IMG/VR virus record: IMGVR_UViG_3300025154_000119
Location: 1 to 56,253 of that record
Strand: one strand, 5' to 3'
Length of the DNA: 56,253 nt
From: a virus
The notes beneath the pieces were generated by a model. That model had not been told where the DNA came from and searched no databases. It saw nothing but the letters and a program-made list of their open reading frames with translations. Made by a program: the position numbers and the translations under genes. Position 1 is the stretch's first letter; every line of letters starts with the position of its first letter. Below are positions 9,212 to 49,452 of this stretch, piece by piece.

Positions 9212-9742
9212 GTGCTTACAATAAAACAAGAAAACTTTTGCCTCGCATACTTTAAGACCGGAAACGCTTCGGAAGCGTATAGGGAGGCCTATGATGTTTC
9301 GAAGATGAAGCCGGAAACAATAAATCGGCGGGCTCACGATTTGGTCAATAACGGCAAGATCAAGGCAAGGATAGAGGATCTATATAAGCCTATCCGCGAT
9401 AAGTTGGTCGCCAGCAAGGAAAAAACGATCAAGCGCCTCATGCAGGGACAAGAATTCGACATCCGCGGCTTGTACCATGAGGACGGTAAATTAAAACAGC
9501 CCTATGAACTCGATGATGATACCGCAAAGGGTGTTGTCGGCGTCAAATACGACAAGGATACCGGTGCCCTTGTCGAATACAAGATAATCGATGTTAAGGG
9601 GTGCGCCGAGTTGATCGGGAAGCACCTCAAGCTGTGGGCGGACAAAGTTGAACTCTCCACTGATCCGACCGATCCAATCATGCAGGCAATCGCCCGTGCG
9701 GCCGGAGTATCCAAGGGCCTTCCTAAACCGGTGGTTGAATAA
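9212..9742 (+). CDS. Terminase small subunit
   Basis: The 176-aa protein starts at a GTG after AAGG. Its N-terminus LTIKQENFCLAYFKTGNASE with AYDVSKMKPETINRRAHDLV is the DNA-binding HTH of the Terminase_2 family, which recognises the packaging site. The central part is acidic and helical and would oligomerise. It overlaps the large terminase start (TAATG), the usual arrangement. Length is typical. Confidence 0.88.
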   Translation: MLTIKQENFCLAYFKTGNASEAYREAYDVSKMKPETINRRAHDLVNNGKIKARIEDLYKPIRDKLVASKEKTIKRLMQGQEFDIRGLYHEDGKLKQPYELDDDTAKGVVGVKYDKDTGALVEYKIIDVKGCAELIGKHLKLWADKVELSTDPTDPIMQAIARAAGVSKGLPKPVVE

Positions 9743-18467: not shown

Positions 18468-19022
18468 ATGTACTATTCTGAAATGGTAGATTCGGTTCAG
18501 CCAGGAATAAGCGCTCCCGCATTCGTGGTTGAAGGGAAAATTCAGGATGCCGTTATCCAGTTTTGCGAAGAAACGGGGATCTGGGTAACGGACCTGGACG
18601 CAATCAATACCGTTGCCGATGAAGACACTTATGACCTCGAATCTTTTGACGGTGTCATCAACAGCGTTTTATCCATCAAGGATGAAAACGATTACGAGCT
18701 TGGGTTCAGCGTGGCTGATGATTTTTCAGCCTTCGTTCTTGATTCAACCCCATCGTCAGTGTTTGCGATCACGCCCAAAGTCGTGCTGATACCGGAGGTC
18801 GGCGGCGGGGAGTTTCCCGACTTTATTTATGCTCGTCACCGGGAGGCGCTCATTGCCGGCGCCAGATACAAACTGTTTGAAATGCCAAACAGAACATGGA
18901 GCCATGACGGTGAAGCGGCGAAGTCGTTGCTGAAGTTCAGAAAAGGAATTACCCGGGCGAACCAGACGTTGCTTCTGGGCAGAAAAAAAGAGTCGTTCGT
19001 CAAAATGATCCCATTTGTATAA
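18468..19022 (+). CDS. Head-tail connector-like protein (184 aa)
   Basis: The N-terminus (VVEGKIQDAVIQFCEETGIW) and C-terminus (ALIAGARYKLFEMPNRTWSH) are helical; the middle is a beta domain. This helical-beta-helical layout is seen in podovirus tail-adaptor (T7 gp11/P22 gp4-like) proteins. It precedes the nozzle-like protein and has a good SD (AGGAG). Its family is not firmly recognised. Confidence 0.65.
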   Translation: MYYSEMVDSVQPGISAPAFVVEGKIQDAVIQFCEETGIWVTDLDAINTVADEDTYDLESFDGVINSVLSIKDENDYELGFSVADDFSAFVLDSTPSSVFAITPKVVLIPEVGGGEFPDFIYARHREALIAGARYKLFEMPNRTWSHDGEAAKSLLKFRKGITRANQTLLLGRKKESFVKMIPFV

Positions 19023-19035
19023 GGGGAACTTGTTC

Positions 19036-20712
19036 ATGAAGCTTGCTCAAGCTGTTTTTGCCGGCATGGCCCCCAGGGTCGAGCCGCATTTGCTCGAAGA
19101 GTCCCAGGGCCAAGACGCCACCAATTGCAAGCTGGTTTCCGGGGCGCTCCAAGCGCTCTACGACTCCATAGTTGCCAGCTCTCCAAGCGGCTCGTCTCTG
19201 GTGGACCTGTATAATTTCGACGGCACATGGCTTACCTTTACGGCGAAAACCAATATCGCCAGGGCGCCGGTCTACAACACAGACAACCGGTTCTATTACA
19301 CGGTTTCCGGGTCAGCGCCTCGAAAAGCGCTCAAAGCCTCATACCCGACCAGTTTCAAAATGGGAGTGCCAAAGCCAGCTTCTATTCCGACTATCACGCT
19401 CTATACTGACCCTGGCGGCATCGGTGAAAACCTTCAGGATGAGGTGTCATACGTTTTTTGCTGGGTAACAGGATGGGGCGAGCAGGGGCCACCGAGCGAC
19501 CCGAGTGCCATCACTGAAATCATGGATAATCAATATGTCGGGATAACCGCCGGCATCACATTGCCGACAAACCATGACACCGATTACAATATCGTCGGGT
19601 ACCGCCTGTTCCGGCTGAGTCATGGGTTAACCGGATCAGAATATTTGCAGGTCTACACGGCGGAATGGACGGACAGTTCGACAACCGGCGGGCATATCCC
19701 GATATCAGATTTGACCCCAACCGATAGGGACGGATCGAATTATGCCCTGATAGATGGGACTAACCTGGGGGGCGCGCTCTCTTCAAACGGGTACCAGGAA
19801 CCACCTGCCACCATGGACGGTCTCATTTTACTGTCAAACGGGGTTTGCGCTGGGTTTTATGGAAACGAAATCGCCCTTTCAGAACCGTTTTTGCCGTTTG
19901 CCTGGAACCCGGATTATGCCCTTGCCGCTGATTATCCCATAACGGCACTGGCATCCTACGACACCGCCATTGTGGTGCTGACAAACGCATACCCCTATAT
20001 TATCGACTGCTATGACCCGGCAAACGCCACCATGAAGCGCATTAACGTGCCCTATCCGTGCGCCTCCCTGGATAGCGTTATAAGCGGCAATGGGTTTGTG
20101 GCTTACGCCTCAACGGTGGGCTTTATCCGGATCAGCGCTAACGGTGTTGAAAACCTAACCGAAGCTCTTTTTACTGACGAGCAGTGGACGGCCCTTGTCC
20201 CTTCCACAATGATTTGCAGATTTTACGATGATCGGTTTTATTTTTTCACATCGGCTGCAAAGACGGGATTTATAATCGATTTATCGTCTCAAATTGGGGC
20301 CTATATCCCGTTTACGATGACTAACAAGACGTATGGGGCTACGGTTTCGGTTAATCCCCACGGGCTTTATCTCCTGACAAAAACAGATGCGGGCGTATTC
20401 AAGATCGAGAAATGGGAGGGAGCGACAAGCAGAAAAGCGGCTACTTATACCAGCAGATTGATGAAGCTCCAAGCCCCCATCAACTTCCAATGCGCGCGGG
20501 TTCAGGGAACCCAAAGCTCCATCAACACCGTCACGTTCCAGCTTTATGGTGACGGGGCCTTGATCCACACCAAAACAGTTTCCGATGATGATTCGTTCTG
20601 GCTCCCCGGGGGGAAGCTTTACCAGGATATTGAGGTAAAACTTGCTACCGGCGTAGCAAAAGTGACGTCGTGGGAGTTGTCAACCTCCGTTGAAGAGTTG
20701 ATAGGAGGATAG
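19036..20712 (+). CDS. Tail nozzle-like beta-propeller protein
   Basis: From the ATG at 19036 (AAGGGG upstream) the protein is 558 aa and beta-rich, with blade-like repeats (DNRFYYTVSG, YGNEIALSEPFLPFAWNPDY, AIVVLTNAYPYIIDC, RFYDDRFYFFTSA, NPHGLYLLTKTDAGVFK). Beta-propeller composition plus the position after two adaptors matches the podovirus tail tube/nozzle (T7 gp12- or P22 gp10-like). There is no tape measure or major tail tube gene in the window, which supports a short-tailed virion. Confidence 0.72.
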   Translation: MKLAQAVFAGMAPRVEPHLLEESQGQDATNCKLVSGALQALYDSIVASSPSGSSLVDLYNFDGTWLTFTAKTNIARAPVYNTDNRFYYTVSGSAPRKALKASYPTSFKMGVPKPASIPTITLYTDPGGIGENLQDEVSYVFCWVTGWGEQGPPSDPSAITEIMDNQYVGITAGITLPTNHDTDYNIVGYRLFRLSHGLTGSEYLQVYTAEWTDSSTTGGHIPISDLTPTDRDGSNYALIDGTNLGGALSSNGYQEPPATMDGLILLSNGVCAGFYGNEIALSEPFLPFAWNPDYALAADYPITALASYDTAIVVLTNAYPYIIDCYDPANATMKRINVPYPCASLDSVISGNGFVAYASTVGFIRISANGVENLTEALFTDEQWTALVPSTMICRFYDDRFYFFTSAAKTGFIIDLSSQIGAYIPFTMTNKTYGATVSVNPHGLYLLTKTDAGVFKIEKWEGATSRKAATYTSRLMKLQAPINFQCARVQGTQSSINTVTFQLYGDGALIHTKTVSDDDSFWLPGGKLYQDIEVKLATGVAKVTSWELSTSVEELIGG

Positions 20713-20713
20713 T

Positions 20714-24322: not shown

Positions 24323-24478
24323 ATGGATCAGCAAATCCCAATGCAAAAATTCAAAGAATGGATCGCCGAACTGTATCTTGAAAAAAAGGCCATGGAGATG
24401 GTCATCCAGTCGCAGGCGGAAGAAATTGCGGCGATGAAGTCCGCCTCAGAACAAAAGAAGGTCGAGTCCAATGTGTGA
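24323..24478 (+). CDS. 51-aa coiled-coil protein after the fibre gene
   Basis: The start at 24323 directly follows the fibre stop, with AAGGAG inside the fibre's last codons. The product is helical (FKEWIAELYLEKKAMEMVI, QAEEIAAMKSASEQKK). Its stop overlaps the start of the next gene. Tiny coiled-coil proteins at this place often act as fibre-assembly factors or as a fibre-tip partner; the role is inferred. Confidence 0.6.
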   Translation: MDQQIPMQKFKEWIAELYLEKKAMEMVIQSQAEEIAAMKSASEQKKVESNV

Positions 24479-25025
24479 CTGCCAGCCGCCGAACTATATC
24501 CTACTCCCCTACGTTCAGACCGAAGATGGTAAGTGGAGTCTTTCCGATGATCAGGTCATGGCGTTGCATGATAGGATTATCCAGTGTGGTTATGGTGAAA
24601 TCTTTTGTGATGGCACGCTCGATACTCGTGAAAAATTTCTTTCATCCATGCAACAACAAAGCAAGCTCTTTATTTTTTTTGCTGGGGGTTTAATCCCAGG
24701 GGTTTTTTGGCTGAATCGATTTGAAGGAAAAATGGCACGGATTCATTATTGCGGGTTTAAGGTCGGAGAATATCGAGATAAAATCAGATTCGCTAAAAAC
24801 GCCATGAAAATGATCCTGCACATGCAAAAGACTGACGGGACATTCTTGCTTGATGTTTTGGTGGGCTATACCCCTGCGAGCCTAAAGAGGGCTGTTCGAT
24901 TCATTGGGGATGTTGGAGGTATTAAGGTGGGCAAAATACCATTTTTGTCGTGGAACGGAAAAACGGGGAAAAGCGAAGAGGGTATAATTTCATATTTGAC
25001 GAGGGAAGCATATGAAAATTTATAA
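24471..25025 (+). CDS. GNAT-like virion-associated protein (184 aa)
   Basis: The pattern MARIHYCGFKVGEYRDKIRF then AKNAMKMILHMQK ... LLDVLVGYTPASLKRAVRFI resembles the core of an N-acetyltransferase (GNAT) fold: strand, helix, then the 'N-A-S' helix near the end. Proteins of this form occur in podovirus tail/internal-protein modules. The acetyl-CoA loop (Q/RxxGxG/A) is not obvious, so enzymatic activity is doubtful. It overlaps both neighbours. Confidence 0.5.
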   Translation: MCDCQPPNYILLPYVQTEDGKWSLSDDQVMALHDRIIQCGYGEIFCDGTLDTREKFLSSMQQQSKLFIFFAGGLIPGVFWLNRFEGKMARIHYCGFKVGEYRDKIRFAKNAMKMILHMQKTDGTFLLDVLVGYTPASLKRAVRFIGDVGGIKVGKIPFLSWNGKTGKSEEGIISYLTREAYENL

Positions 25026-26181
25026 TGAGATCAAGATGAATATCGATTCTTGGGAGGTCCTCCAGGAAGATTCCTCCGAATATTGCGGTCCGGTGACGCT
25101 TTGCAAAAGTGGTGGCTCAACAACAACAGTTGACCCAGCGTATAACTCCATTCTTGGGTCGATCGCTCAAGATAACCAAAAATGGGCAGACCTGTTTATG
25201 AGCCAGTATTTTTATGCCGACGCATCTGGGGACCCGAATGAAAAGTTGACGGGATTCTATAAAGATGACGGCAGTTTTGTTGATATGACAAAATTTCAAA
25301 ACGTCGAATGGGTCGCCGAGGGAAGGTCCTCACGTGGGCGATCAGTGGACGGAGAAGACCTAGGGATTTATTTAGACCCGAAAATGAACGTCAAGGGAAA
25401 CCCCGACCTTGAAGGTATGAAGTGGAGTACCAAGTTAAAGCGGTTCGAGTTCGCGGATGGAACACCAGTTTCTTACACAACCGTTTTGCGAAAAGACACG
25501 CCCGGGTATGAAGAATCAACCCACACTTCCGGCGCTGAATATGCCCAGAACTCGATTGATGCCCAACAATCCCTGTTGGCCGGGGAGACCTCCGCTTCAG
25601 CTTCAGAGACGGCGTTAAAGGGAGCAACTGCCGATGCTGCACTGTCGCTAATCCCGGCCCAAACAGATGCCGCGCTTACAACGGCGCTTCTGACGACTGC
25701 GACAAACGATATGAATAGGGCAAACGTTGACCAGCAAGGGCGAACCAATCTTTCCGGGCTTTTGTTAGAGCAGGAAACCAACGATATGAACCGGTCACTC
25801 GTTGATCCAACGCAACGGGCGGCGCTATCCGGCCTTGAGCTTCAGCGGGAAACAAATGATATGAACCGATCGTTCATCCCCCTAAAGACCGAAGTCGGGA
25901 AAGCTTTTTATGATGCGGCCCTAACCGGTGTCGATCCAAACCAACGTGCCAACCAGGCCCAAGTTGACGCCACCCTGGCGTTTCAAAACGCTGGCAAGGA
26001 TATGCGGCAGCAAGCTGCGCTTGCCGGCGTGAACCCGAATTCCGGCAGGTTTGCCGGCGCTTTGGCAAACAACTCCTTGGACCAGGCCAAGGCTATCGGT
26101 GGGGCGAGAACCGCAGCCAGAACGAATGCGGAAACTGAGAATTTTAGCAGGCTCACGACAGCCATGGGAGGGGCTCAATAA
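25012..26181 (+). CDS. Internal virion protein with Asn-Asp-Met-Asn repeats
   Basis: The 389-aa product has an N-terminal mixed domain and a helical Ala/Gln/Thr-rich second half (residues ~190-389) with three copies of a TNDMNR unit about 35 residues apart (within TATNDMNRANVD, QETNDMNRSLVD and RETNDMNRSFIP). The long low-complexity helices resemble podovirus ejection (internal core) proteins. It is followed without a gap by the Gly-rich and helical genes below, so the three probably form one ejection-protein set. Start by GGGAAGC before ATG 25012; downstream in-frame ATGs exist. Confidence 0.65.
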   Translation: MKIYNEIKMNIDSWEVLQEDSSEYCGPVTLCKSGGSTTTVDPAYNSILGSIAQDNQKWADLFMSQYFYADASGDPNEKLTGFYKDDGSFVDMTKFQNVEWVAEGRSSRGRSVDGEDLGIYLDPKMNVKGNPDLEGMKWSTKLKRFEFADGTPVSYTTVLRKDTPGYEESTHTSGAEYAQNSIDAQQSLLAGETSASASETALKGATADAALSLIPAQTDAALTTALLTTATNDMNRANVDQQGRTNLSGLLLEQETNDMNRSLVDPTQRAALSGLELQRETNDMNRSFIPLKTEVGKAFYDAALTGVDPNQRANQAQVDATLAFQNAGKDMRQQAALAGVNPNSGRFAGALANNSLDQAKAIGGARTAARTNAETENFSRLTTAMGGAQ

Positions 26182-26906
26182 TGCCTTACTCTTTTCAGCA
26201 AATACAGCCGGATGTTTTTTTCAATAACGCCACAGCGCTTCAGGGCCAAGCTACTGGAGCCGCCTCAAGCATGAACCGGATGAAAGAAAAAAAGGTTGAT
26301 ACCCACACGGCAGGCGGAGCGATCAGTTCTATGGCTGGGACAGCTTTGGTGGGCGGCCAGATAGGGAAGATGTTTGTTGGAGAAAAAGCGGCTGAAAGCG
26401 CCACCAGCGCAGGAATAAAAGCAGCCCAAATGCCAGGTGGGATGATGGTTGGGGACGCGGCTTTTATGGGGTCCGGTGGGGGTGCTCTTAGCGGTGCAGC
26501 CGGTGGGGCTTCAGCTATAGAGGGCGGGATGATGGTTGGGGACGCGGCCATGATGGGCTCTGGGGCTGCTGCTGCAGGGGGCGCGGCCGGAGGTGCGGCC
26601 GGTGGGACCGCAGCTATAGAGGGCGGAATGATGGTTGGAGACGCGGCCCTGATGGGTTCTGGTGCTGCTGCGGCAGGGGGCGCGGCCGGAGGCGCGGCCG
26701 GTGGGACCGCAGCTGTTGAGGGCGGAATGATGGTTGGCAATGCAGCTCTTATGAGTTCTGGAACCGCTGCCGGAGGTGGGGCGCTCGGAGCGGCCGGAAC
26801 AGGAGCGGCGGCCGGCGGTGAAGCGACATCATGGAGTGGGCCATGGGCAGCCGTTGGGGCGGCGGTAGGGGCGGCTGTTGGCTTACTCACTTACTATCTG
26901 GCTTAG
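26181..26906 (+). CDS. Gly/Ala-rich repeat protein, probable membrane-inserting ejection protein
   Basis: The 241-aa product is dominated by Gly, Ala and Met. A GGMMVGDAA-MGSG unit starts at residues 86, 115, 148 and 181, with Gly-zipper-like GGAAGGAAGG stretches between the copies. The C-terminus (AAVGAAVGAAVGLLTYY) is a classic Gly-zipper membrane span. The N-terminal 60 residues are soluble. Such Gly-zipper proteins in podoviruses are thought to line the DNA-ejection channel through the envelope. This is inferred from composition and from its place between two ejection-type genes. Confidence 0.65.
   Translation: MPYSFQQIQPDVFFNNATALQGQATGAASSMNRMKEKKVDTHTAGGAISSMAGTALVGGQIGKMFVGEKAAESATSAGIKAAQMPGGMMVGDAAFMGSGGGALSGAAGGASAIEGGMMVGDAAMMGSGAAAAGGAAGGAAGGTAAIEGGMMVGDAALMGSGAAAAGGAAGGAAGGTAAVEGGMMVGNAALMSSGTAAGGGALGAAGTGAAAGGEATSWSGPWAAVGAAVGAAVGLLTYYLA
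26436..26790 (+). repeat. Tandem coding repeats (87-99 bp) in the Gly-rich gene
   Basis: Units begin at 26436, 26523, 26622 and 26721; the two 99-bp units are near-identical, with GGCGGGATGATGGTTGGGGA or a close variant at the head of each copy. Recent unequal duplication is likely, and copy number may vary between relatives. Confidence 0.75.
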
Positions 26907-26919
26907 CAGGGGTGACATT

Positions 26920-28473
26920 ATGGATAGATATGGCAGGTTCGACCTTCAAGATGGCATTCAGATTTATGGAGCGCTCAGGGGGTTCCAACAAGATCAACGT
27001 CAAGATGAGGCATATCAGCGAAAGCTTTCAGAAGAGCAGCAATATAAACAGAATCTGGGGAACCTCCAAAAAAATCCGGATTACAAGCCGGATATGAACG
27101 CCCCAGGGTATGACCCTGATGCTTGGAATAAAGCCGCATTGCAGCAGGCCAGTGCAACCCTTGCCACCGATGAGGCTACCGAAAAACGCGCAAAGATGGC
27201 GCAGCAACGCATCGAGCTTCAGCGCAATAACATTGCCAGAGGTGCTTCCGATGCCCTTGCCGTTTACCAGACTGACCCCCAGGCGGGGACTATCGCCATG
27301 CTGAAAACGTATGACCAGCTTCATGACGGTATCGAGATAGTGAAGGATGATAACGGGAATCCGCTTATTGACGAGAAGGGCCAGATCACGCTCAAGGGAT
27401 TGAACGGTTCCACCACAACGGCGCCAATCCCTCCGATGGGCGATATGATCAAAATGGCGCAGATGTACACCGACCCGAAAAACCTGCAAAAGGTGGATGC
27501 CATGTCAAGCGACGCTTACCGGGCGGCGAATGCATCCGCTATCGCAAAGGCGAAGCACTATCAGAACGACCAGGGCCAGGTTGTTGCCGTTGTGGATCAG
27601 CTCTATGATCCGATCGATAGAAGCAAGGTTCAAACCGTTGTTCTCGATCTTAAAACAGGCCAACCGATTGATCCTGCCGAGTTCGCACAGGGGGGGTTCC
27701 GGGAAATCAGCCGGGAGAGTACCGACAAGTTTGGCCAGCAAGTTGCGCTTAAGGGTCTTGAGGCGTCAAACGATAGGAACAAGCTCACGTATGAATATCA
27801 GCTTAAGGGCGATCTGGAAAGAACGAAGGCTGGCGCTCAAAACAAGGGCGGTGTTGGGTCGGCTGAAGCGAAAAATCAGCTTGAGCTTGTCCTGATGCCT
27901 TTTGCTGAAGGCAAACAGCCGCTGTTTACCATGGATGGGGATATGACCGCCGAAGGGCAAACAGCTCTTCAGAAGGCGCAAACAACCCTTGGAAAGTATC
28001 AGACCACAGCGCCGAAAACTCTGACGGAAAAACGAGAGGCCGAGCAGGCAAAACGCGCCCTTCAGGTTTATTCGAACATGCATGACGAGGTCATGAGAAA
28101 ATGGGGGCCAGGTGGTAAGCCCCAGGCTTCCGCGTTGTCTGGTGGCGGGCAAGGACAGGCACCGGTGGATGTTCCCAACCAGGCCGCAAACGATCTTGTG
28201 AGACTGAAAGAATCAGGGCTATCGGATGAAGAGGCCGGAATAGTTTTGATGAAACGGTACCCGACCTTGAAGGTTCAAGACGATACGGCCCGGCCCCAAC
28301 AGCCAATACAACAGCCAATTCAACAACCCCAAGGTCAATCGGCGGCGCCCCAACAGCAGGGCGGCGGGATATCTCCCCAGCAAGCCAAAGCCGAATTTCA
28401 GGGCCTTGCCCGCCAGTACGGCAAAGACAAAGCGAAGCAGATGATGATTCAAAAATACCCCGGTCTTTTTTAG
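26920..28473 (+). CDS. Helical internal virion protein (517 aa)
   Basis: Start set at 26920 (MDRYGRFDLQDG...) after AGGGGTG; an upstream in-frame ATG at 26878 overlaps the previous gene. The protein is Gln/Lys/Asp-rich, long-helical and water-soluble, with a Pro/Gln-rich linker (~450-490) and a helical end (QAKAEFQGLARQYGKDKAKQ). It resembles the large helical ejection proteins of podoviruses. Only 7-10 bp separate it from the giant polyvalent gene. Confidence 0.65.
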   Translation: MDRYGRFDLQDGIQIYGALRGFQQDQRQDEAYQRKLSEEQQYKQNLGNLQKNPDYKPDMNAPGYDPDAWNKAALQQASATLATDEATEKRAKMAQQRIELQRNNIARGASDALAVYQTDPQAGTIAMLKTYDQLHDGIEIVKDDNGNPLIDEKGQITLKGLNGSTTTAPIPPMGDMIKMAQMYTDPKNLQKVDAMSSDAYRAANASAIAKAKHYQNDQGQVVAVVDQLYDPIDRSKVQTVVLDLKTGQPIDPAEFAQGGFREISRESTDKFGQQVALKGLEASNDRNKLTYEYQLKGDLERTKAGAQNKGGVGSAEAKNQLELVLMPFAEGKQPLFTMDGDMTAEGQTALQKAQTTLGKYQTTAPKTLTEKREAEQAKRALQVYSNMHDEVMRKWGPGGKPQASALSGGGQGQAPVDVPNQAANDLVRLKESGLSDEEAGIVLMKRYPTLKVQDDTARPQQPIQQPIQQPQGQSAAPQQQGGGISPQQAKAEFQGLARQYGKDKAKQMMIQKYPGLF

Positions 28474-28480
28474 GAGATCC

Positions 28481-31400
28481 ATGATGCCCGACATATTTGA
28501 CGAGTGGTATGCAGAAATAGCACCCCCAGCAGCACCCAGCACTCCGGCGAGATCGACCTTTGATGATTGGTGGGGAAGCCCGGCGGAACCCGCCGTGGAA
28601 CCCGTGCCTCAAAAAATAACCGATGCTGATCTTGACCAGTGGGCGGCAGAAGTTGAGCCTTCATTTATGGATAATTTGGCAGCCGCACCAGTGGAGGCAC
28701 TAAAAGGCTGGGTCAGGGGAGCAAACAGCATTCCGGAAAGCGCCGGCGCCGCCATGGAGTATGCCGGGCGACGGCTTGAAACCACTCCTGAAGAGCAAAT
28801 CCAAAACGGGATAAACCGCCTGAACCCAAACCAGCAAGGCGAAATCATCAACAAGATGATTGATTGGTCAAGGCCCGGGGTTGACGAAGATGCTTCTTTT
28901 AACCGCGCGGCCAAGCAAACCATTGAAAAATACGCTCCGATATCGGCACTTAGGGGAGCCGCAATGGATGCCGGGAACGCCATCGCGCCGCATTTAATCG
29001 ACGCCGGCAGGGCCACCTCGGATTATTACAAAGACATGGCAAGCGGCTATAAGGCCGATGCGAGCTTTGAAAATAAAAACCTTTGGGATAACCCAGACCT
29101 TCTTTTGAATCCGGCATGGTGGTCATCGAGCACCGCCGAGATGATGCCGCAATTGATAGCAACACTGATTCCGGCAGCAGGGATTCAATCCGCTGTAACC
29201 CGTGTGGGGGCAAGCCTTATTCCGCAAACCGTCGAAGCTTCGGCAAGGCTGGTAAAGCTTGGCCGGTTTATCGGGGCAGCCGGTGGTGGTGCCGCCGGCG
29301 GAGGAATGGAGGCGACGCAAACCTATAGAGACGTGCTCGAAACAACTGGCAATGAAAAAGAGGCCGCAAGGGCCGCTGAATTTATGGGCGTTGCATCCAG
29401 TATCCTTAACACAGTCGGCAATGCCGAAATTCTTGAATATGCCGGCAAATCGTTTTTGAAGAAGGTCGGTCGAGGGTTTGTTGTCGAGGGGGCATCTGAA
29501 GGCCTTGAGGAACCCGCAGATGTTTCCGGCAGGATGTTATCGAAAATCATCAACGGGGAAGATCTCCCGGATGATGTAGCCAACCTTTATCTTGATTCGC
29601 TGAAATCTGCATTGACTGTTTTCCCGATAGCAGGGGTTACCGGTGCGGCCGGTGCGGCCGGAACGCATTTCAAAAGCAAGGGCGCCGCCGTCAATCTTCT
29701 TGAAAGCAAGGCGGCGGATACAGATTTGGCCGCCCAACTCCGGGCGACTGTCGCCGATGCTCCGGTGGGAGACGGAACAATTCCCCTTGACACCCCGGCG
29801 CCCCCGGGCGGGTTTGGTTTCCCAGTTCAGGACCAAGCGGAAATGGACGCCATGGAGCAAGATATCATCCGGCAACGTCAAACCGCCCTTGCTGGCCCAG
29901 AGATTCAGGCAACACCGCTTCAGGTCCAAAACCAAGCAAAAATTGACCGGTATGCGGCGGACCAAGCGGCAGCCGAGCAAGATCAGATTCGTCAGGCCCA
30001 GCAGGCGCAAGGACTCGGGAAAACCGGGGAGGTTCTCGGGCAGGGCGTTGATCAGGCCAGACAAACACAAGAGCTTTTGTATCGTGCTGGCGGGCTTCCG
30101 GTTCCGGAGCAGACGCCGAACCGGTTAGCCTTACCGTTTCCGGATAGCATCGACCCAAACGCGATACCGCTTCCATACGATGACACCACCTATGACAGCA
30201 TTTTTGATCAATGGGAAGCTGAGGAGGAAATGGAGGCTCCCACGGGTGCTCGGACTGCAATTCCGATGGATAAGCGTCAGGTTGGTTTTGAAACGGTTGG
30301 AGAATCCTATCCATACAGTTCCGGCGATAGTACTCCGGTGACTGAGCGGCCAAATATGGCGCTTTTAGCTGGACCACCCGTACCTGATTCGAAGGTTGCT
30401 CCTGTTGGAATGAGTGCCCCTGAAAGCCCAAAGCCTGAAACCAAAAAGGAAAAATCCCGCAGAGAATACAATGAATTTGTTTCTGGGTTATCAGAGCAGC
30501 AACTTGAAAAAGTGAAAGGCTTGATTCCGGATACCGAACCAGATCTCCCCGGTTCTGTTCTGTTGAAGATAAAGGCAAAACTTAAAGCCGATCCGCCAGG
30601 CGCTGAAGCGGTAACAGAGCCGGTTATGGCTGATTCCATCAATCAACCATCAAATAAAGATGTTGAGGAAAGTTGGGATGTTGGGGTCGCTGCGCCTGTT
30701 GTTGGGGTTGAGGCGTCAAGCAAAGTCGAGCCTCCGAAGGCAACCCGTTTTCCGCAAAGTCACGTTGACGATCTGTATGCAAAAAACATCATCCATCCGG
30801 TTGCTGACGCACAGCAATCCACAGAGATAGAGACGGACCCTGCGAGAGTGCAAGAGATAAAAAATAGCATCGCAGAGGGCGAAATTATTTTAAAATCCGG
30901 AAAAACAATATCCGGAAAGAGAATGCTCCCTGAGCAACTCGCAGCCGTTCAAAGAGCGGTTGATAGTAGTTATTTAAAGATAGGCGGGAAAGCCCCGCAA
31001 AAAACAACCGAAGGAGGTGATGCAAATGTCCAAACAGAAGGGCAAGGGCAAACCCAAGCCCTGCCGAAAATAAAATCAGGTCCACAGGAAGTGACCGACC
31101 CAACAACGCCCCCCGCCGAATCGATCCCCGGCGGGGGATCAAAAAACATCGTCAAGGGTAAACAGGGAACCGCTTACACCCAGAAAAACGATCCGGTTGG
31201 TTTCCATTATGCCGTTGTTGATGCAGATGATCTTGTGGTCTCGCACGATGCCGAGTTTCATAAAAACGAAGCCTATCCTCAAGAGCTTCAGCCAAGAGAC
31301 CGGGACAGGTCCGCCCTTCGTCTTCAGGTTGAAAAAATAGCCAACACCATCAATCCGGCAAGGCTTGGTCAATCCGCTGGGGTTTCTTCGGGGGCTCCTA

Positions 31401-34400
31401 TCGTGGGCCCGGATATGGTGGTCGAGTCTGGAAACGGCCGAAGCATAGCGCTACGAAAGGCATTCGCCCTTGGGAAGGGCGAGGCTTACCGGAAGTTCTT
31501 GGCGGATAATGCGGAAGATTTTGGGGTTAACCCAGACGAGATCGGCAGCATCAAAAACCCGGTTCTTGTCCGGGTTCGGGCTGATTCTAAAATGGATCGC
31601 GCGAATTTTGCAAAAGAAGCCAACCGGGATGAAATAGCTCGGATGAGCCCGCTTGAACAGGCCATATCTGATGCTGAACTTATCACCGATGACGATATTT
31701 CTATGTTTAAACCGTCAGATGATGGCGCTATTTCACCACACGCAAATTCTGCTTTTGTGAAGCGGTTTTTTACCAAGATGGGCGGGAACGAATCCGCCGG
31801 CTTAATGACCGATGACGGACGGATCACAAAGACCGGCCTTGACCGGTTGCAAGCCGCCGTATTTGCTAAGGCATATGCCGATAAGAATATCGTCGAGTTG
31901 CAAGCAGAGGAGGCCCACCCTGATATCAAAACGATTATCAACGCGCTCAATATCGCGGCCGGAGAGTTTGCGAAAGCTCGGTCCAACGGGGACGCTTTTA
32001 ACGCACTTGATATAACAAGTGATATAGTTGAGGCCGCAAAGATTGTCCGCCGATCGCGCAACGAAAAGACAACTGTCTCCCAAATCGTTAACCAAAAGGA
32101 TATGTTTTCGAAGCGATCCGTTGAATCCGAAGTACTTGCACAATTTTTTGATAACAACATTCGGCGCGGGAAGCACATGGGAACCGCCCTAAAGAAGATG
32201 GCGGAGACAATCAAGAATGATTTGCAAAATAGGAACCAGCTTGATATGTTTGGCAAGAAGCTTAAGATTACCAAGCAGGACGCCATAACGCGAGGAATCG
32301 AATATGCAGACGCCGAAAGAGATAACGGACAACGACAAAAGGGTCTATTTGATAGCAGTTTTGACGAAGGCAATCGAGGAGACCAACAAGGAAAACTCGA
32401 ACGATCCTCCTCTGGAAATCCCGAAAGAGTGGTTGACGGAGGTGTAAATGAGCGATCCAATTCCTATCAAACCGTACTTGAAAAACCAACCCAACTCTCC
32501 TTTGATTTCAAACCATCAAAACGCGAAGGTAATAAGACCGGAGCTGTTCTTCCGGTATCGAATCCGGCCAGAGTCAGAATGTCAACGACTGGGGACATAC
32601 ACGCCGCCGGAACCGTGGTGCGGGATTCCGCCGACGCCGCCGCCCTTCTTGCCCATATAAGAAAAGCCGCCCAGGAAAACCTCTACTTCGTCACAACCGA
32701 TAAGGACGGACTTGTCCTTGAAATACACAGGTACAGTAAAGGGGAAAAAGCTTCCGCAGCTTTTAATTCTATTGAGGCTACCGGGGGCATCCTTCGTATT
32801 CCAAGAGCTGCCCACACCTACATGGTTCACAACCACCCGAGCGGCACCCTTTTTAGGTCCAACCTTTTGGAAGATAGTTCTGGTGCAAGCGATCAAGACG
32901 TCCTGGCGCTGAAACGGCTCTCATCCAATTTAGGCCTTAAGGGCATTTCTGCTCATGGCCTCATCATTGAGGGTACAACCTATACTGATTTTACGCCTGG
33001 ATCTGATTACGAGCGAAAACCAATCAGGGCGACGATACGAAAGGTTAAGCTCCCAGTAAAAGAGCGTATTTTTAAATACAGCGCGCAGCCCTCAGGCCAG
33101 CAGGAAATGTTGAACAGCCCCGAAAAAGTGGCTGAAGTTATAAAAAACAAATACGGCGACAAGGACGGGTTGATGTTCCTGAACACCGGACTTTTTGATG
33201 TTGGGTTTATGCCGTGGCCCAAGGGGGAGAATCAAAGAGTCGCAGTCGCCAAAATAATATCTGAAGCTGAACAATTAAACGCAAGGGGCTTTGTCGTTAA
33301 CCTGTCAGAAATAAGCCCAGAACGTATGCAGTTTATCAAAGACGTCGCCGCCGGCACCCGGCTGGAGCTCTTCGATGTTATTGAAAGCGGGGACTCTTTT
33401 TACAGGAAAGATACTTGGAGGCTCTCTGGCTCGGCTGTAAGCTCGGAAGAGGCCTCTATCGATAGACTTAATTCGATAGAAGATAGGCCGCTCTATTCTA
33501 CATCCCCCTTATCGCCTCAATCCGGCATCACCCTAAAAGACGTCCGAGATATGTTCCCCGGAATGGCCGTCACAGACTCCGGGTATGGCAAGTTCACCCT
33601 CACAAATCCTGCCGGCAAAGCCATCACCGTCGAGACCGTCAGTCGCATCGGCATCGATGATGGCGCCTTTGAAATATCGTACCAGCGCAAACCCACATCC
33701 GAAGAAAAGGCCCGTGGCGCCGCAGGGTCATACCAGAACGGAACGATAAAGATCTCAAAATCAGGCGACCGATGGTCCCTTGCCCATGAAGCCTATCACC
33801 ACCTCGAAGCATCGGGTATGATCAGCGCCGGGGATATACTAGTGCTGAATGAGGCTGTCAAGAAGGCCGGCGGTAGGGCCACCGAAGAAGCCCGCGCCAG
33901 GTTCGTTGAGGACATGCGGTACAAGCGGGACTCTGTTTCCGGCCGGTTGCGGAAGCTTTTGCATAAAATCAGGGATTTGATTGACGGGTTTGTGAACTTG
34001 TTTCGGCGGACCGCCAAGGGGGTTATTCGGGATATTGAGTCAGGGTCGATATCCAAGGGAGAAATATCAAACAGCCAGATGACCGCCGCGGCCCCGGCCT
34101 ATCAAATAAAAACCGACTTCTCAAAGCAGCTTGATGATTTTATTTCGCGTGGGGAAACAGGACAACGAAACTATGGCGAACTCATAACAGTTGGGTGGAC
34201 CCCCGACGTGCTTTTGGCCCTTGGCGCAAAAAAATACCCTGTTACTATGTCGCCAAAGGTAGCCATAAAAATTCTTAACGACCGAGAAGACAGGCGAGGC
34301 ATCCCTGTTGAAACATTAAAACAAATCCCGGAAGCTATCGCTGACCCGATAATGGTGTTCGATTCTAAAACTGCGCCAAAAGGGCAAAGCCTTGTTGTTG

Positions 34401-37372
34401 TAACAGAATTAAAAAGCCCAGAGAATAAGACTATAATCGTTGCTATTTATTTAAACCAGCGCAACAAGCGGCACGAAGTTAACGCCATTGGCAGCCTATA
34501 TGGTAAAGACAAGGATCCTTGGTTTGTTGACCAGATTAAAGAGGGTAGGCTTAGATATATAAACAAAAAAAAGAGCAACCGATGGTCTCAATCCGCCGGG
34601 CTCCAATTGCCCCTGGAGGAGACCACCAATGGCTCTTCTAACCGGAAGATACTGTTTGATCACGATATTGTCAAGCCAAAAACTCAATATTCAGGCACCA
34701 ACCCCAGAACCAATAACGATCCCTTCGCCGAAGAAAACCGACGCCTCCGGGAGCAGGACAAAACCCTTTGGGAGAAAGCGGGCAAAGTCCTAAAGCGCCA
34801 ACTTGCCCCGGGCGGTCTTCTCCCCGATGAAGTGTTCTCGGAAAAGATCAAGCGCGACTCAGAGTTCAACGTGGTCGAGATGGATACCGAGCGGCTTGTA
34901 GTAGCCTTTGAGCGGGCAGTCAAGAAGGATTACGGGAAAACGTTTCAAGGTTTGCCGTTCGCAAAGCAAAAGGAACTTGCAGATGCCCTCGCCGGGAAGG
35001 TGCCGGCCAACATGCCGGAAGGGACCAAAACGACTATCGTGGCCATGCGCCGGTACATTGACGGCCTGTCCCTTGATTATGCCGATATCCTCTTTAAGCA
35101 GGCCGAACAGATAGCGCGAGACGGTAAAAACGACGCGGCCGCCGCGGCGAAAGTGGATCTCCTCAACACCATTGCAGGGAATGTGGGGCAATACGTTCAT
35201 CGGTCGTACCGGGTGTTTGATGATAAGAATTGGTTTAAGAAGGTTCCGACCGAAATCATCAACGATGCCAGGCTTGCCCTGCGCGACCAATACATGGAAA
35301 AAGGCGAAACCCAAAAAGACGCCGATACCATGGCGGATCGGGCCATCAACAAGATTTTGAAGACCGGAACCGCTTTCGACAGTATGGAAAGCTTCATCAA
35401 AGAATCTAAGCTTGGCGCCAAGGACTTGAGCGTCTTGAAACGGAGGAAGGATATCTCCCCGGAGATCCGGGCGCTACTCGGGCAGCACATCGACCCGCGG
35501 GTGAACTTCGCCAAGACCGCCACCAAAATGGGGCGGCTGGTTTGGAATCAGCGGTTCCTTGACAAGATCCGCGAGACCGGTATGGGAGTTTTTCTGTTCG
35601 AGGATGAAAATGCGCCGGCCGGGGCCACCAAGCAGATCGCAGCCGATCAATCAGAAACTTATTCCCCGCTGAATGGCCTTTGGACCTTTCCGGAAATAGA
35701 CCAAGCATTCAAAGATGCCCTCGGCAAAGAGCAGATGCCGGACTGGTTGCGAACCATCGTTCAGGTTAACGGCGCCATAAAATTCGGGAAAACGGTCCTG
35801 TCTCCAACTACGGCGGCCAGAAACTGGCAATCCGCCATGTTCTTTGCGCTGGCAAACGGCCATTTCAACATGACCCACATGGCAAAGTCGATAACCTCAT
35901 TGCAGGAATATTTCAACGCGAACGGAAGCGACGCCAAATTCCAGTATCTCAGAAAACTGAAGCAGCTCGGGGTGGTTTACGACTCCCCTTATGCCGGCGA
36001 GATGATGCGCCTTTTGGCTGATAGCCAAATGGCAGATGATCTGATCCGGGGTACCGGCCATAGGACCCTTAAAAACATGATAGGGTACGCCCAAAAATTC
36101 TATCAGTTCGGGGATGATTTTTGGAAAATTATCGGATTCGAGAACGAAAAAACGGCCTTTATGCGGACCGGTATGGATGAGGCGGAGGCCGAGAAGGAAG
36201 CGGCCGAGCGTATCCGGAACACCTACCCGACTTACAGCATGGTTGGGAAAGCAATCAAATCCCTCGCCAGGTTTCCCCTGGTGGGCACCTTCGTAAGTTT
36301 TCCAGCGGAGATCATCCGCACCCAGGCGAACATGCTTAGCTATGTCGCCCAGGATTTCAAAACGCCCGGGCGGAAAAAGATGGCGCTCAGGCGGATGGCT
36401 GGAATGGCCATATCGGCCGGCGCGATTTATGCGCTCCAAGCGGTATCAAAGGTAATTTTGAGCGTCGATGACGAAGAAGACGAGGCGACGAGAAAGCTTG
36501 CGGCGCCATGGCAACGGAACTCTAATCTTTGGTATCTGAACAGGGAAAAGGACGGATCGCTTCGCTATATCGATCTGAGTTTCCTTGACCCATACGGATA
36601 CTGGAAGCGGCCGATAACGGCGATACTCCGGGAACAGCCTTGGGAGCAGAAATATGCCGATGTGGCGAAAGAAACACTTGGGCCTTTTCTTGGGACAGAT
36701 ATTCTTGCCGGGGCAATCCTTGAGGTTTTTACCAACAAGCGCTTCGACACTAAAACCAAAATTTACAAAGAAAGCGATTTTATGCCCGGGCAAACTGCCG
36801 ACATCGCCAAGCACCTTGCACAAAAGCTTCAGCCAGGCATTATGACAAATGCCATGCGAACGTACAAAGCAATCGACGGCCAGGTCTCCCCTTCCGGGAA
36901 AAAATATAACCTTGAAGATGAAATGATGGCGCTTGTCGGTTGGAGATTCACAACGGCAGATCCGAAAATCGCCCTTTATTACCGGGTATTCGAATTTAAC
37001 GACGCCAAAAAAGAAGCCTCAAGCGGCCTCTACCGGGTTCTCAGGGATAAAAACGCAGTCGATAAAGAGGCCATTAAAGACGCTTACGTCTACACCACAA
37101 AGCTCCGCAAAAAAGCATATGCTGAAATGGCCGGGCTGATTCATGCTGCGGAAAAAAGCGGTATGACCGATCCCCAAATTATCTCCGTTCTGCGAGCAGG
37201 CAATATTTCAAAAACTGATATCGCGGCCTTAATGATGGGCAATACCGCCGCTTGGAAGATGAGCCCTCAGAGTATAAAAAACGATGCCAAAAAGAGCGAG
37301 GTTCTTTTCGGAACCGGCGGCGAAACGCTGAAGCGGTACCAACAGCTTCTTGAAATATCGCAAGCAAAATAA
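28481..37372 (+). CDS. Giant phage polyvalent protein (2963 aa)
   Basis: This one frame is 16% of the window. Visible regions: acidic FDxW motifs (residues 3-60 and ~572); hydrophobic/Gly-rich helices (~229-400); a DdrB-type ParB domain (~883-1075, with GNGRSIALRKAF); a RadC/JAB-like metallopeptidase fold (~1360-1500; HNHPSG at 1450-1455, then SDQD); a zincin (HEAYHH, 1769-1774); a MuF C-terminal-like domain (~1870-2047); and an LPD38-like region (~2420-2700; VLSPTTAARNWQSAMFFALA). Such proteins are thought to be packaged and injected with the DNA. The second ATG (28484) fits GGAG better. Which activities are real is unknown. Confidence 0.88.
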   Translation: MMPDIFDEWYAEIAPPAAPSTPARSTFDDWWGSPAEPAVEPVPQKITDADLDQWAAEVEPSFMDNLAAAPVEALKGWVRGANSIPESAGAAMEYAGRRLETTPEEQIQNGINRLNPNQQGEIINKMIDWSRPGVDEDASFNRAAKQTIEKYAPISALRGAAMDAGNAIAPHLIDAGRATSDYYKDMASGYKADASFENKNLWDNPDLLLNPAWWSSSTAEMMPQLIATLIPAAGIQSAVTRVGASLIPQTVEASARLVKLGRFIGAAGGGAAGGGMEATQTYRDVLETTGNEKEAARAAEFMGVASSILNTVGNAEILEYAGKSFLKKVGRGFVVEGASEGLEEPADVSGRMLSKIINGEDLPDDVANLYLDSLKSALTVFPIAGVTGAAGAAGTHFKSKGAAVNLLESKAADTDLAAQLRATVADAPVGDGTIPLDTPAPPGGFGFPVQDQAEMDAMEQDIIRQRQTALAGPEIQATPLQVQNQAKIDRYAADQAAAEQDQIRQAQQAQGLGKTGEVLGQGVDQARQTQELLYRAGGLPVPEQTPNRLALPFPDSIDPNAIPLPYDDTTYDSIFDQWEAEEEMEAPTGARTAIPMDKRQVGFETVGESYPYSSGDSTPVTERPNMALLAGPPVPDSKVAPVGMSAPESPKPETKKEKSRREYNEFVSGLSEQQLEKVKGLIPDTEPDLPGSVLLKIKAKLKADPPGAEAVTEPVMADSINQPSNKDVEESWDVGVAAPVVGVEASSKVEPPKATRFPQSHVDDLYAKNIIHPVADAQQSTEIETDPARVQEIKNSIAEGEIILKSGKTISGKRMLPEQLAAVQRAVDSSYLKIGGKAPQKTTEGGDANVQTEGQGQTQALPKIKSGPQEVTDPTTPPAESIPGGGSKNIVKGKQGTAYTQKNDPVGFHYAVVDADDLVVSHDAEFHKNEAYPQELQPRDRDRSALRLQVEKIANTINPARLGQSAGVSSGAPIVGPDMVVESGNGRSIALRKAFALGKGEAYRKFLADNAEDFGVNPDEIGSIKNPVLVRVRADSKMDRANFAKEANRDEIARMSPLEQAISDAELITDDDISMFKPSDDGAISPHANSAFVKRFFTKMGGNESAGLMTDDGRITKTGLDRLQAAVFAKAYADKNIVELQAEEAHPDIKTIINALNIAAGEFAKARSNGDAFNALDITSDIVEAAKIVRRSRNEKTTVSQIVNQKDMFSKRSVESEVLAQFFDNNIRRGKHMGTALKKMAETIKNDLQNRNQLDMFGKKLKITKQDAITRGIEYADAERDNGQRQKGLFDSSFDEGNRGDQQGKLERSSSGNPERVVDGGVNERSNSYQTVLEKPTQLSFDFKPSKREGNKTGAVLPVSNPARVRMSTTGDIHAAGTVVRDSADAAALLAHIRKAAQENLYFVTTDKDGLVLEIHRYSKGEKASAAFNSIEATGGILRIPRAAHTYMVHNHPSGTLFRSNLLEDSSGASDQDVLALKRLSSNLGLKGISAHGLIIEGTTYTDFTPGSDYERKPIRATIRKVKLPVKERIFKYSAQPSGQQEMLNSPEKVAEVIKNKYGDKDGLMFLNTGLFDVGFMPWPKGENQRVAVAKIISEAEQLNARGFVVNLSEISPERMQFIKDVAAGTRLELFDVIESGDSFYRKDTWRLSGSAVSSEEASIDRLNSIEDRPLYSTSPLSPQSGITLKDVRDMFPGMAVTDSGYGKFTLTNPAGKAITVETVSRIGIDDGAFEISYQRKPTSEEKARGAAGSYQNGTIKISKSGDRWSLAHEAYHHLEASGMISAGDILVLNEAVKKAGGRATEEARARFVEDMRYKRDSVSGRLRKLLHKIRDLIDGFVNLFRRTAKGVIRDIESGSISKGEISNSQMTAAAPAYQIKTDFSKQLDDFISRGETGQRNYGELITVGWTPDVLLALGAKKYPVTMSPKVAIKILNDREDRRGIPVETLKQIPEAIADPIMVFDSKTAPKGQSLVVVTELKSPENKTIIVAIYLNQRNKRHEVNAIGSLYGKDKDPWFVDQIKEGRLRYINKKKSNRWSQSAGLQLPLEETTNGSSNRKILFDHDIVKPKTQYSGTNPRTNNDPFAEENRRLREQDKTLWEKAGKVLKRQLAPGGLLPDEVFSEKIKRDSEFNVVEMDTERLVVAFERAVKKDYGKTFQGLPFAKQKELADALAGKVPANMPEGTKTTIVAMRRYIDGLSLDYADILFKQAEQIARDGKNDAAAAAKVDLLNTIAGNVGQYVHRSYRVFDDKNWFKKVPTEIINDARLALRDQYMEKGETQKDADTMADRAINKILKTGTAFDSMESFIKESKLGAKDLSVLKRRKDISPEIRALLGQHIDPRVNFAKTATKMGRLVWNQRFLDKIRETGMGVFLFEDENAPAGATKQIAADQSETYSPLNGLWTFPEIDQAFKDALGKEQMPDWLRTIVQVNGAIKFGKTVLSPTTAARNWQSAMFFALANGHFNMTHMAKSITSLQEYFNANGSDAKFQYLRKLKQLGVVYDSPYAGEMMRLLADSQMADDLIRGTGHRTLKNMIGYAQKFYQFGDDFWKIIGFENEKTAFMRTGMDEAEAEKEAAERIRNTYPTYSMVGKAIKSLARFPLVGTFVSFPAEIIRTQANMLSYVAQDFKTPGRKKMALRRMAGMAISAGAIYALQAVSKVILSVDDEEDEATRKLAAPWQRNSNLWYLNREKDGSLRYIDLSFLDPYGYWKRPITAILREQPWEQKYADVAKETLGPFLGTDILAGAILEVFTNKRFDTKTKIYKESDFMPGQTADIAKHLAQKLQPGIMTNAMRTYKAIDGQVSPSGKKYNLEDEMMALVGWRFTTADPKIALYYRVFEFNDAKKEASSGLYRVLRDKNAVDKEAIKDAYVYTTKLRKKAYAEMAGLIHAAEKSGMTDPQIISVLRAGNISKTDIAALMMGNTAAWKMSPQSIKNDAKKSEVLFGTGGETLKRYQQLLEISQAK
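31026..31073 (+). CDS. Out-of-frame 15-aa basic ORF with perfect SD inside the polyvalent gene
   Basis: AAGGAGGTGATG lies just upstream of an ATG at 31026 that opens a short frame, MSKQKGKGKPKPCRK, +1 to the host gene. The host frame here is a Gly/Gln/Thr-rich linker just before the DdrB-ParB domain. The full anti-SD complement is notable inside a coding region. It may be a translated micro-ORF, a fossil of a former gene boundary, or chance. Confidence 0.25.
   Translation: MSKQKGKGKPKPCRK
32304..32447 (+). CDS. Out-of-frame 47-aa nested ORF in the polyvalent gene
   Basis: ATG at 32304 follows GAGGA by 8 bases. The frame (+1 to the main gene) reads QTPKEITDNDKRVYLIAVLT then KAIEETNKENSN and ends IPKEWLTEV. 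It has normal codon choice and a protein-like amphipathic composition. The main frame over the same bases reads as a Gly/Arg/Gln/Ser-rich linker with clustered CGA and GGA codons between the ParB-like and RadC-like domains. Either an expressed overlapping gene or a formerly separate gene that was read through. Confidence 0.35.
   Translation: MQTPKEITDNDKRVYLIAVLTKAIEETNKENSNDPPLEIPKEWLTEV
32448..32660 (+). CDS. Out-of-frame 70-aa nested ORF directly after the previous one
   Basis: The ATG at 32448 abuts the stop of the 47-aa nested ORF, with GGAGGTG (32438-32444) as SD. The first ~45 residues look plausible (MSDPIPIKPYLKNQPNSPLI ...), but the last ~25 are a Pro-rich shadow of the RadC-like domain. 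It may be the remains of a gene start that was fused out of frame. Low confidence as an expressed gene. Confidence 0.22.
   Translation: MSDPIPIKPYLKNQPNSPLISNHQNAKVIRPELFFRYRIRPESECQRLGTYTPPEPWCGIPPTPPPFLPI
34629..34793 (+). CDS. Weak out-of-frame 54-aa nested ORF after the MuF-C region
   Basis: ATG at 34629 is preceded by GGAGG (34615-34619), again at a domain boundary and again in the +1 frame. The product (MALLTGRYCLITILSSQKL..., Pro/Lys-rich end) is less protein-like than the 47-aa ORF. Listed because it repeats the position pattern. Confidence 0.13.
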   Translation: MALLTGRYCLITILSSQKLNIQAPTPEPITIPSPKKTDASGSRTKPFGRKRAKS

Positions 37373-37406: not shown

Positions 37407-37485
37407 TTAAAATCGATGTGGTTGCTATGATTATTTATCAAAATATATGTTGGCAAAAAACCGCACCAAAGAGGGCGATAATATC

Positions 37486-37980
37486 ATGGTAACCAACTTT
37501 GAATACGCCATAAAAAACCTGCTGGCGGATGAGGGCGGGTATGTGAACGACCCAGCCGACCCCGGTGGGGAAACGAAATTTGGTATCAGTAAACGGGCCT
37601 ACCCCAACGAGGACATTAAAAACCTTACTGAAGTCAGAGCCAGGGAGATCTACCGCCGGGACTATTGGAACAAACTTAACGGCGATGCCATACTCTCACC
37701 GGAAAAAGCGAGCGCGGTTCTTAGCGCATGTGTCAATTTTGGTGTGGCGAACGGGGTCAAACTCGCCCAAAAAGCGGCCGGTGTACCGCGTGATGGCGAG
37801 ATGGGTGGCCAAAGCGTTCGGAGAGTCAACGACATGGATCTTGATACCTTTTTAGCTCGGTTTGCCATCGCTATGATCGAGCGCTACACTCGGATTTGCC
37901 GGGGGAATCCATCGCAGATAAAATATTTTCTCGGGTGGGTTAACCGGGCTTTGCGAGTTTCCGGAATGGTGGCCCAATGA
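37486..37980 (+). CDS. GH108-type endolysin
   Basis: From the ATG at 37486 the protein is 164 aa. LLADEGGYVNDPADPGGETK with FGIS is the glycoside hydrolase family 108 signature, with catalytic Glu16 in EGGY. YRRDYWNKL and a C-terminal PG_binding_3-like region (ASAVLSACVNFGVANG, FLARFAIAMIERY) follow. It cleaves peptidoglycan at lysis. No signal peptide is seen, so release needs the holin. The in-frame ATG at 37447 is less likely, since GAGG precedes only 37486. The next gene overlaps by four bases. Confidence 0.9.
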   Translation: MVTNFEYAIKNLLADEGGYVNDPADPGGETKFGISKRAYPNEDIKNLTEVRAREIYRRDYWNKLNGDAILSPEKASAVLSACVNFGVANGVKLAQKAAGVPRDGEMGGQSVRRVNDMDLDTFLARFAIAMIERYTRICRGNPSQIKYFLGWVNRALRVSGMVAQ

Positions 37981-49362: not shown

Positions 49363-49452
49363 TCAAGCTTCAGGGCGGACGAGGCGTTTCCCACACACTC
49401 GGCAGCGTGGATGGTTCGGCCGCTCAAAGCCTGGGAGTTTGGCTTGCTTCAT
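49363..49452 (-). CDS. Tiny CxxC peptide (29 aa)
   Basis: The ATG at 49452 overlaps the DUF5131 gene stop (ATGA) and has GGGAGG 10 bases upstream, inside that gene. The product ends PRCRVCGKRLVRPEA, a basic CxxC peptide. The context favours expression; length is too short for family assignment. Confidence 0.45.
   Translation of the reverse strand: MKQAKLPGFERPNHPRCRVCGKRLVRPEA

Follow-up and report, generated by a model that had tools for sequence, protein, structure and literature searches.

Domains of P0001

The window analysed here, the 56,253-bp IMG/VR virus record IMGVR_UViG_3300025154_000119, contains a single uninterrupted, ATG-started open reading frame (ORF) that encodes a giant protein of 2963 aa, designated P0001. 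In the original prediction, this 8.9-kb frame was described as a polyvalent virion protein joining ParB-like, JAB, zincin, MuF-C, and LPD38-like regions behind a hydrophobic Gly-rich N-terminus, and its order and completeness were proposed as possibly defining a distinct injected multi-tool protein. The frame is confirmed by the ORF listing and translation. Polyvalent proteins with such domains, a class regarded as being injected into bacteria together with the phage genome, are already known and P0001 is a new member of them; its distinct feature is not its domain set, but a constant C-terminal module with turnover ahead of it. The features of P0001 are as follows.

28481..37372, +, polyvalent protein P0001, 2963 aa (ORF listing, translation)
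28697..29770, +, N-terminal module rich in Ala/Gly, residues 73-430; probably a diverged form of the N-terminal domain (NTD) of the N4 virion RNA polymerase (vRNAP)/Bcep22-type module
31157..32254, +, DdrB-type ParB region, residues 893-1258; Pfam core 903-1033
32588..33010, +, RadC-type JAB domain, residues 1370-1510; PF04002, conserved columns, fold match to RadC 2qlc
33011..33415, +, second alpha/beta domain travelling with JAB, residues 1511-1645; co-conserved in JAB loci, mostly with a predicted local distance difference test (pLDDT) score >85
33494..34060, +, zincin-like region, residues 1672-1860; 36% identity to residues 1908-2095 of P0002, the protein of locus L002 (L-numbers denote the viral loci compared)
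33785..33799, +, HExxH motif HEAYH, residues 1769-1773; sole HExxH of P0001
34166..34618, +, MuF-C domain of the BECR/PBECR class, residues 1896-2046; Arg where His is usual
34748..37339, +, C-terminal core module, likely of the distant LPD38 superfamily, residues 2090-2953; about 100 ORFs, predicted structure

Pfam finds exactly three families in P0001 at E-values up to 5, each above its cut-off: ddrB-ParB (PF18763; residues 903-1033, E 1.5e-35, 122 bits against 27.6), RadC (PF04002; residues 1382-1461, E 2.2e-5, 24.8 bits against 22.1), and MuF_C (PF18819; residues 1933-2033, E 2.7e-25, 88.9 bits against 27.6). All three had been predicted, and together they provide P0001 with at least two unrelated enzymatic domains, as expected of a phage-type polyvalent protein, the JAB domain being recognized also by its fold. 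The ParB region is approximately 40% identical to DdrB of phages P1/D6 and retains GNGR with its conserved Arg, which is invariant in the alignment; the corresponding PHROGs match is wider, spanning residues 887-1338. MuF-C is a BECR (RNase-like) domain, and most such families carry a catalytic His and a Ser/Thr (Iyer et al., 2017; PMC5512222). In P0001 the Ser is kept, while Arg occupies the position held by His in three aligned relatives. The RNase activity of this domain is uncertain because Arg replaces His, yet it is still possible because one PBECR family with Arg has been described by Iyer et al. (PMC5512222).

The JAB domain is of the RadC type by profile, predicted fold, and residues alike. 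All JAMM residues (E1399, H1450, H1452, S1470, and D1473) are kept, and these are near-invariant across the JAB loci aligned, whose members lack the 10-residue insert found in P0001 between HNHPSG and SDQD. An AlphaFold model of residues 1360-1880 has pLDDT >85 over most of the JAB domain and the domain that follows it, and the four top Protein Data Bank (PDB) matches of the JAB model are all chains of RadC 2qlc (template-modelling scores of 0.59-0.74 by target length, Foldseek E 1.2e-3 to 4.5e-3). A PDB sequence search with the JAB part of P0001 returned nothing meaningful. Scanning with an alignment of the JAB region as query gave 99 viral loci, of which 80 were kept, and a single-sequence query gave no loci. 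The RadC-type JAB and its companion domain occur across these roughly 80 viral loci (L133-L212) nearly always in ORFs >1000 aa; in 79 of 80 the JAB region is part of an ORF with 1000 aa or more. ParB and JAB are found together in L141, L156, and L191, and JAB and zincin in L133, L135, and L196.

The zincin-like region is conserved over residues 1672-1857 in L002, L133, L135, L196, and L201, each with an HExxH. An E-x-RA motif downstream of it is conserved in the same five loci and could supply a third metal ligand. Upstream of the core, an HExxH or HExxxH is present in all 36 complete close relatives, a set that includes some near-identical sequences, compared with 0.98 expected from shuffles.

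The N-terminus of P0001 is Ala/Gly-rich as predicted, but it is not hydrophobic in the sense of containing a Kyte-Doolittle segment above 1.5; the sole such segment of the protein is at residues 2642-2662. With HMMER filters off, searches gave suspiciously wide matches in Ala/Gly-rich sequence, and the search was repeated with decoys and default filters. The resulting models comprise 25-27 members, with the test proteins left out and with reversed and locally shuffled decoys, none of which were recruited. These models reach BcepMigl gp69 at about residues 352-711 in four of four cases (E down to 3.7e-34, Z=100,000) and N4 gp50 at about residues 194-449 in three of four (E 5e-11, 1e-8, and 8e-7), and they do not reach T7 gp16. 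In hhalign comparisons of the module, probabilities are 74-94% for N4 and 98-99% for the Bcep22-type proteins. An N4-type N-terminal module is shown by these profile comparisons in many family members. P0001 itself probably carries one, as a profile of the P0001 and P0002 pair matches the family model with hhalign P of 2e-6 to 8e-4, versus 0.09 or worse for shuffled decoys. In N4 gp50, membrane helices are predicted at residues 224-278, and the NTD enters nanodiscs (PMC12633501).

Constant core and exchanged putative cargo

The C-terminal core, searched with residues 2082-2963 of P0001, comprises about 865 residues and is predicted to be all-helical (AlphaFold with 60 sequences; pLDDT 88, predicted template-modelling score 0.85, about 40 helices). 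Viral and genome scans identified the core in at least 529 viral relatives and in 20 bacterial contigs, the carriers including Halopseudomonas, Azoarcus, Zoogloea, Pseudomonas guineae, and Marinomonas; some core-bearing contigs are genomes of cultured strains. It is C-terminal in every one of the approximately 100 ORFs examined (427-4073 aa). Residues 2225-2926 of P0001 match a virion structural protein family in PHROGs. The core model finds no PDB structure at E<=0.001 (best 0.16), and in BFVD it matches 85 predicted viral proteins, many of which are named large polyvalent proteins. One of these is named LPD38 (Foldseek E 1.3e-8), and others are named RelA/SpoT, Zeta toxin, LT_GEWL, and ART.

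The LPD38 profile (PF18857) finds nothing in P0001 at E-values up to 5-10, and a formal LPD38 assignment of P0001 was rejected at the Pfam level. Sub-threshold PF18857 matches lie inside the core at an equivalent place in L011, L047, and L061, and hhalign weakly matches the core with Bcep22-type C-termini (E 0.008). A distant link between the core and LPD38 is likely, though not formal, because of the sub-threshold matches in relatives and the structure comparison. The LPD38-like C-terminal part is not confirmed in the form predicted.

Turnover ahead of the core was assessed in 36 complete members with a core identity of at least 38%. While the core varies in length from 845 to 930 aa, the upstream part ranges from 969 to 3199 aa, and the median portion of it that can be aligned is 12% at a core identity of 55-65% and 20% at 65-75%. 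The closest relative among the matches listed is P0002, with 60% identity in the core. P0001 and P0002 share just residues 2-567 (33%), the zincin region at 1672-1857 (36%), and the core; P0002 lacks the ParB, JAB, and MuF-C domains of P0001 and instead contains a domain resembling 2H/Acb1 (E 1e-4) and probably an ART, for which the match is weak. Across 37 proteins (the 36 relatives and P0001), the cargo includes LPD1 in 11, ART in 10, LPD5 in nine, InPase in five, MuF_C and LPD3 in four each, RadC in three, and ParB in two, in addition to methyltransferases, a strawberry-notch-type helicase, LPD23, and LPD37. The C-terminal core is constant, and the sequence between it and the N-terminus undergoes near-complete turnover. 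The JAB, ParB, zincin, and MuF-C modules also recur in other combinations, including in giant ORFs without an identified C-terminal module of this kind. The claim that order and completeness set P0001 apart is not upheld, since the set of ParB, JAB, zincin, and MuF-C is just one among the many that this C-terminal chassis carries. In the literature searched, which is itself incomplete, no earlier account was found of the rule of constant carrier and variable cargo or of the N4-type N-terminal module.

The 2H phosphoesterase-like domain of P0002 spans residues 786-905 and matches the 2'-5' RNA ligase family (1e-4) and anti-CBASS Acb1 (8e-4), both below curated cut-offs. It may represent a virion-borne anti-CBASS enzyme.

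Another relative is encoded by Pseudoalteromonas phage Y3 (L005, OR779980). Positions 19501-21501 of this record contain two adjoining copies, identical over 1001 bp and offset by exactly 1000 bp, at the split between ORF30 and ORF31, and an assembly artefact probably accounts for the annotation of separate 'DdrB-like' and 'ADP-ribosyltransferase' genes. Y3 ORF30 (L005 10254-20519), reported as an N4-type virion RNA polymerase, contains ParB, ART, LPD5, LPD1, and methylase domains and no polymerase according to Pfam. What links it detectably to N4 gp50 is its N-terminal module; the match to the published ORF30 is based on gene order.

Probable packaging, proposed delivery, and alternatives

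Evidence that such proteins enter virions comes from relatives. Cellulophaga phage phi18:3 gp123 contains the core (hidden Markov model E 1.4e-160; 29% identity) and is annotated as a virion structural protein from tandem mass spectrometry (MS/MS); in contrast to P0001, it has 1935 aa and no Pfam-recognised cargo. JC1 gp69 (4515 aa, LPD38 at residues 4195-4401) was detected in association with virions by mass spectrometry, with 51 unique peptides (PMC9144972). The description of P0001 as a polyvalent virion protein is supported by its domains, by its late-gene position after the terminase, portal, capsid, and tail genes, and by the relative detected in virions.

P0001 resembles several known systems in part. 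Like the phage-type polyvalent proteins of Iyer et al. (2017; PMC5512222), it is a giant late-gene protein with several unrelated enzyme domains, and the vocabulary of these authors includes DdrB-ParB, RadC, MPTase, MuF-C, and LPD domains. Their account, in the portion cited, describes no fixed-carrier rule, whereas P0001 joins RadC and DdrB-ParB on a large constant C-terminal module. The Bcep22-type 'DarB-like' giants (Lessievirus; JC1 gp69 and BcepMigl gp69) share with it their genome place, a similar terminase (TerL 39%), and some structural genes; their N-terminal module is the one common to the family, an LPD38 lies at their C-terminus, and the JC1 protein is virion-associated. However, their cargo consists of lysozyme, methylase-helicase, and LPD3, and their C-terminal modules are only weakly related to the core. 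N4 vRNAP gp50 (Schitoviridae), a giant ejected protein, has the layout that is probable for P0001, with an N-terminal membrane domain, a cargo enzyme, and a large C-terminal domain. Its N-terminal module is homologous to that of many family members, and an MPTase domain is reported. In contrast, its cargo is an RNA polymerase, a domain found in P0001 by neither Pfam nor PHROGs, and its C-terminal domain lacks a detectable relation to the core. T7 gp16 is likewise the large, helical last protein of an internal-virion cassette and is reported to cross the inner membrane, but it has no sequence or structural match to the core. According to a review of ejection proteins, gp16-like proteins exchange domains and have membrane-spanning parts that are conserved (PMC8954989); such exchange would fit a fixed carrier with exchangeable cargo, though no T7 gp16 homology was found. 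P1 DdrB is a virion head protein for which similarity to P0001 was found in the ParB region and nowhere outside it.

It is probable that P0001 is a virion-packaged, ejected polyvalent protein composed of a fixed carrier and exchangeable cargo. The core would keep P0001 in the head, join the ejection apparatus, or both, and the protein would pass the tail partly unfolded. The N-terminal module may then lodge in the inner membrane of the host, following the proposal made for N4 gp50 (PMC12633501). The zincin-like domain might cut the chain, either within the producing cell or following entry, and thereby free the cargo, as proposed by Iyer et al. The ParB-type nuclease/NTPase, the RadC-type JAB, and the MuF-C/BECR domain would act early on host nucleic acids, nucleotides, or defence systems. 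An injected anti-defence role, as originally predicted, would be consistent with the polyvalent proteins of Iyer et al. (2017; PMC5512222). A broader proposal has about even chances, namely that a single widespread chassis (an N4-type N-terminal module, an obligatory zincin, and a helical core of about 865 residues without solved relatives) delivers swappable effectors across many unrelated phages. In that case the chassis would be the phage counterpart of the constant-delivery, variable-toxin layout of polymorphic toxins, with P0001 as one loading.

Several observations weigh against ejected cargo on a fixed carrier. For the phage of the window, the evidence consists of sequence and predicted structure. 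The N-terminus of P0001 is not reached by the leave-out models and is joined to the family only through P0002 and profile comparison. The MuF-C domain departs from the pattern of a catalytic His with a C-terminal Ser/Thr through its Arg. The zincin-like region has no zincin match in Pfam or the PDB, and model confidence is moderate there; of the predicted HExxH zincin, the conserved HExxH region is confirmed and the zincin fold is putative. Homology of the core to T7 gp16 and N4 gp50, first suggested by motifs of similar appearance, was rejected because hhalign, hmmsearch, and Foldseek gave it no support, and a core role in packaging or ejection consequently rests on position and the phi18:3 record. 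Finally, short relatives of about 1280 aa have the core but neither HExxH nor an extended upstream part, which indicates that the basic function of the core needs no cargo.

The strongest competitor, a tentative one at well below even chances, is that the zincin cuts P0001 in the producing cell and only part is packaged, the giant chain being a precursor. P1 DdrB is reported to be cut to a form of about 76 kDa ahead of packaging (PMC5512222), the zincin-like region of P0001 lies between JAB and MuF-C, and HExxH/HExxxH is universal in close long forms. Conversely, N4 vRNAP with its MPTase domain is packaged unprocessed (PMC5512222), and a cut near the zincin would strip the core from cargo N-terminal to it. 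Processing of this kind is compatible with most of the carrier and cargo arrangement. It is unlikely that the cargo-like domains serve mainly assembly, packaging, or DNA ejection instead of countering host defences, with the ParB-type domain helping to build the head and JAB and MuF-C acting as binding modules. P1 DdrB is listed as aiding the addition of DarB to the capsid (PMC9024508), the MuF-C of phage Mu is considered inactive (PMC5512222), and that of P0001 lacks the usual His; yet the upstream region is nearly fully replaced between phages with 55-75% identical cores, unlike an assembly part, the JAMM residues of P0001 are fully kept, and other members contain obvious enzymes (methylase/helicase, InPase, and ART).

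Still less probable is a protein made late that remains inside the producing cell and does not become part of the virion. Although the virion data come from relatives and not from the phage of the window, phi18:3 gp123 has the same core and is found in virions, and P1 DdrB and JC1 gp69 are virion proteins. Fusion of adjacent genes by misassembly has a negligible chance of explaining P0001: contigs can be misassembled, and the related Y3 record bears such a sign, but independent contigs, including genomes of cultured strains, carry this core in single ORFs that are 2000-4000 codons long.

For the packing and delivery of polyvalent proteins, the core and the N-terminal module shared with N4 offer concrete, testable delivery parts. 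The middle region becomes a list of candidates for effectors of early infection and for anti-defence enzymes (ParB, RadC-JAB, and MuF-C in P0001; 2H/Acb1-like in P0002). Should the core prove sufficient for packaging and delivery, it could also be used as a protein-delivery tool.

Genome setting

P0001 is preceded by small and large terminase, portal, capsid, internal virion, and tail genes and followed by an endolysin, a late/virion placement in a portal-terminase phage that matches phage-type polyvalent proteins. The neighbouring features are as follows.

9742..11391, +, terminase large subunit, Bcep22-like; PHROG 2, 39% to BcepMigl TerL
14967..15917, +, major capsid protein; PHROG 267
19015..20712, +, internal virion/head-closure-type protein, BcepMigl gp63-like; PHROG 511 E 2e-96, 27% to gp63
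24471..28473, +, four ORFs directly 5' of P0001 (184, 389, 241, and 531 aa); candidate partner ejection proteins by position
37447..37980, +, endolysin directly 3' of P0001; PHROG 315 E 1.5e-46

The TerL, the gp54-like gene, the gp63-like gene, and part of the gp66-like gene resemble those of the Bcep22-type podophage BcepMigl, whose giant gp69 occupies a genome place equivalent to that of P0001. The phage of the window is probably short-tailed. No structural gene of the window matched the L002 phage record, and the core thus appears mobile between phage backbones. Among the four ORFs upstream of P0001, the second (389 aa) weakly matches BcepMigl gp66, and apart from this there is no informative family match. 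Family-wide conservation of the gene directly upstream of the giant ORF was not found for the window. The 241-aa ORF (26181-26906, +), two genes before P0001, consists of 27% Ala and 24% Gly and is a candidate pore-forming ejection partner.

Elsewhere in the window, an ORF at 6489-7091 (+) encodes a dATP/dGTP diphosphohydrolase N-terminal domain (PF18909, E 1.4e-24); it overlaps the end of a DnaB-like helicase ORF and might relate to nucleotide-pool or modified-base metabolism. A DUF5131 protein (E 4e-82) is encoded at 49449-50312 (-), adjoining RecT-like and SMC-type genes on the same strand. A gene at 50300-50983 (-) encodes a protein with a metallo-beta-lactamase fold; it matches anti-Pycsar Apyc1 weakly and under the curated cut-off (E 1.9e-4).
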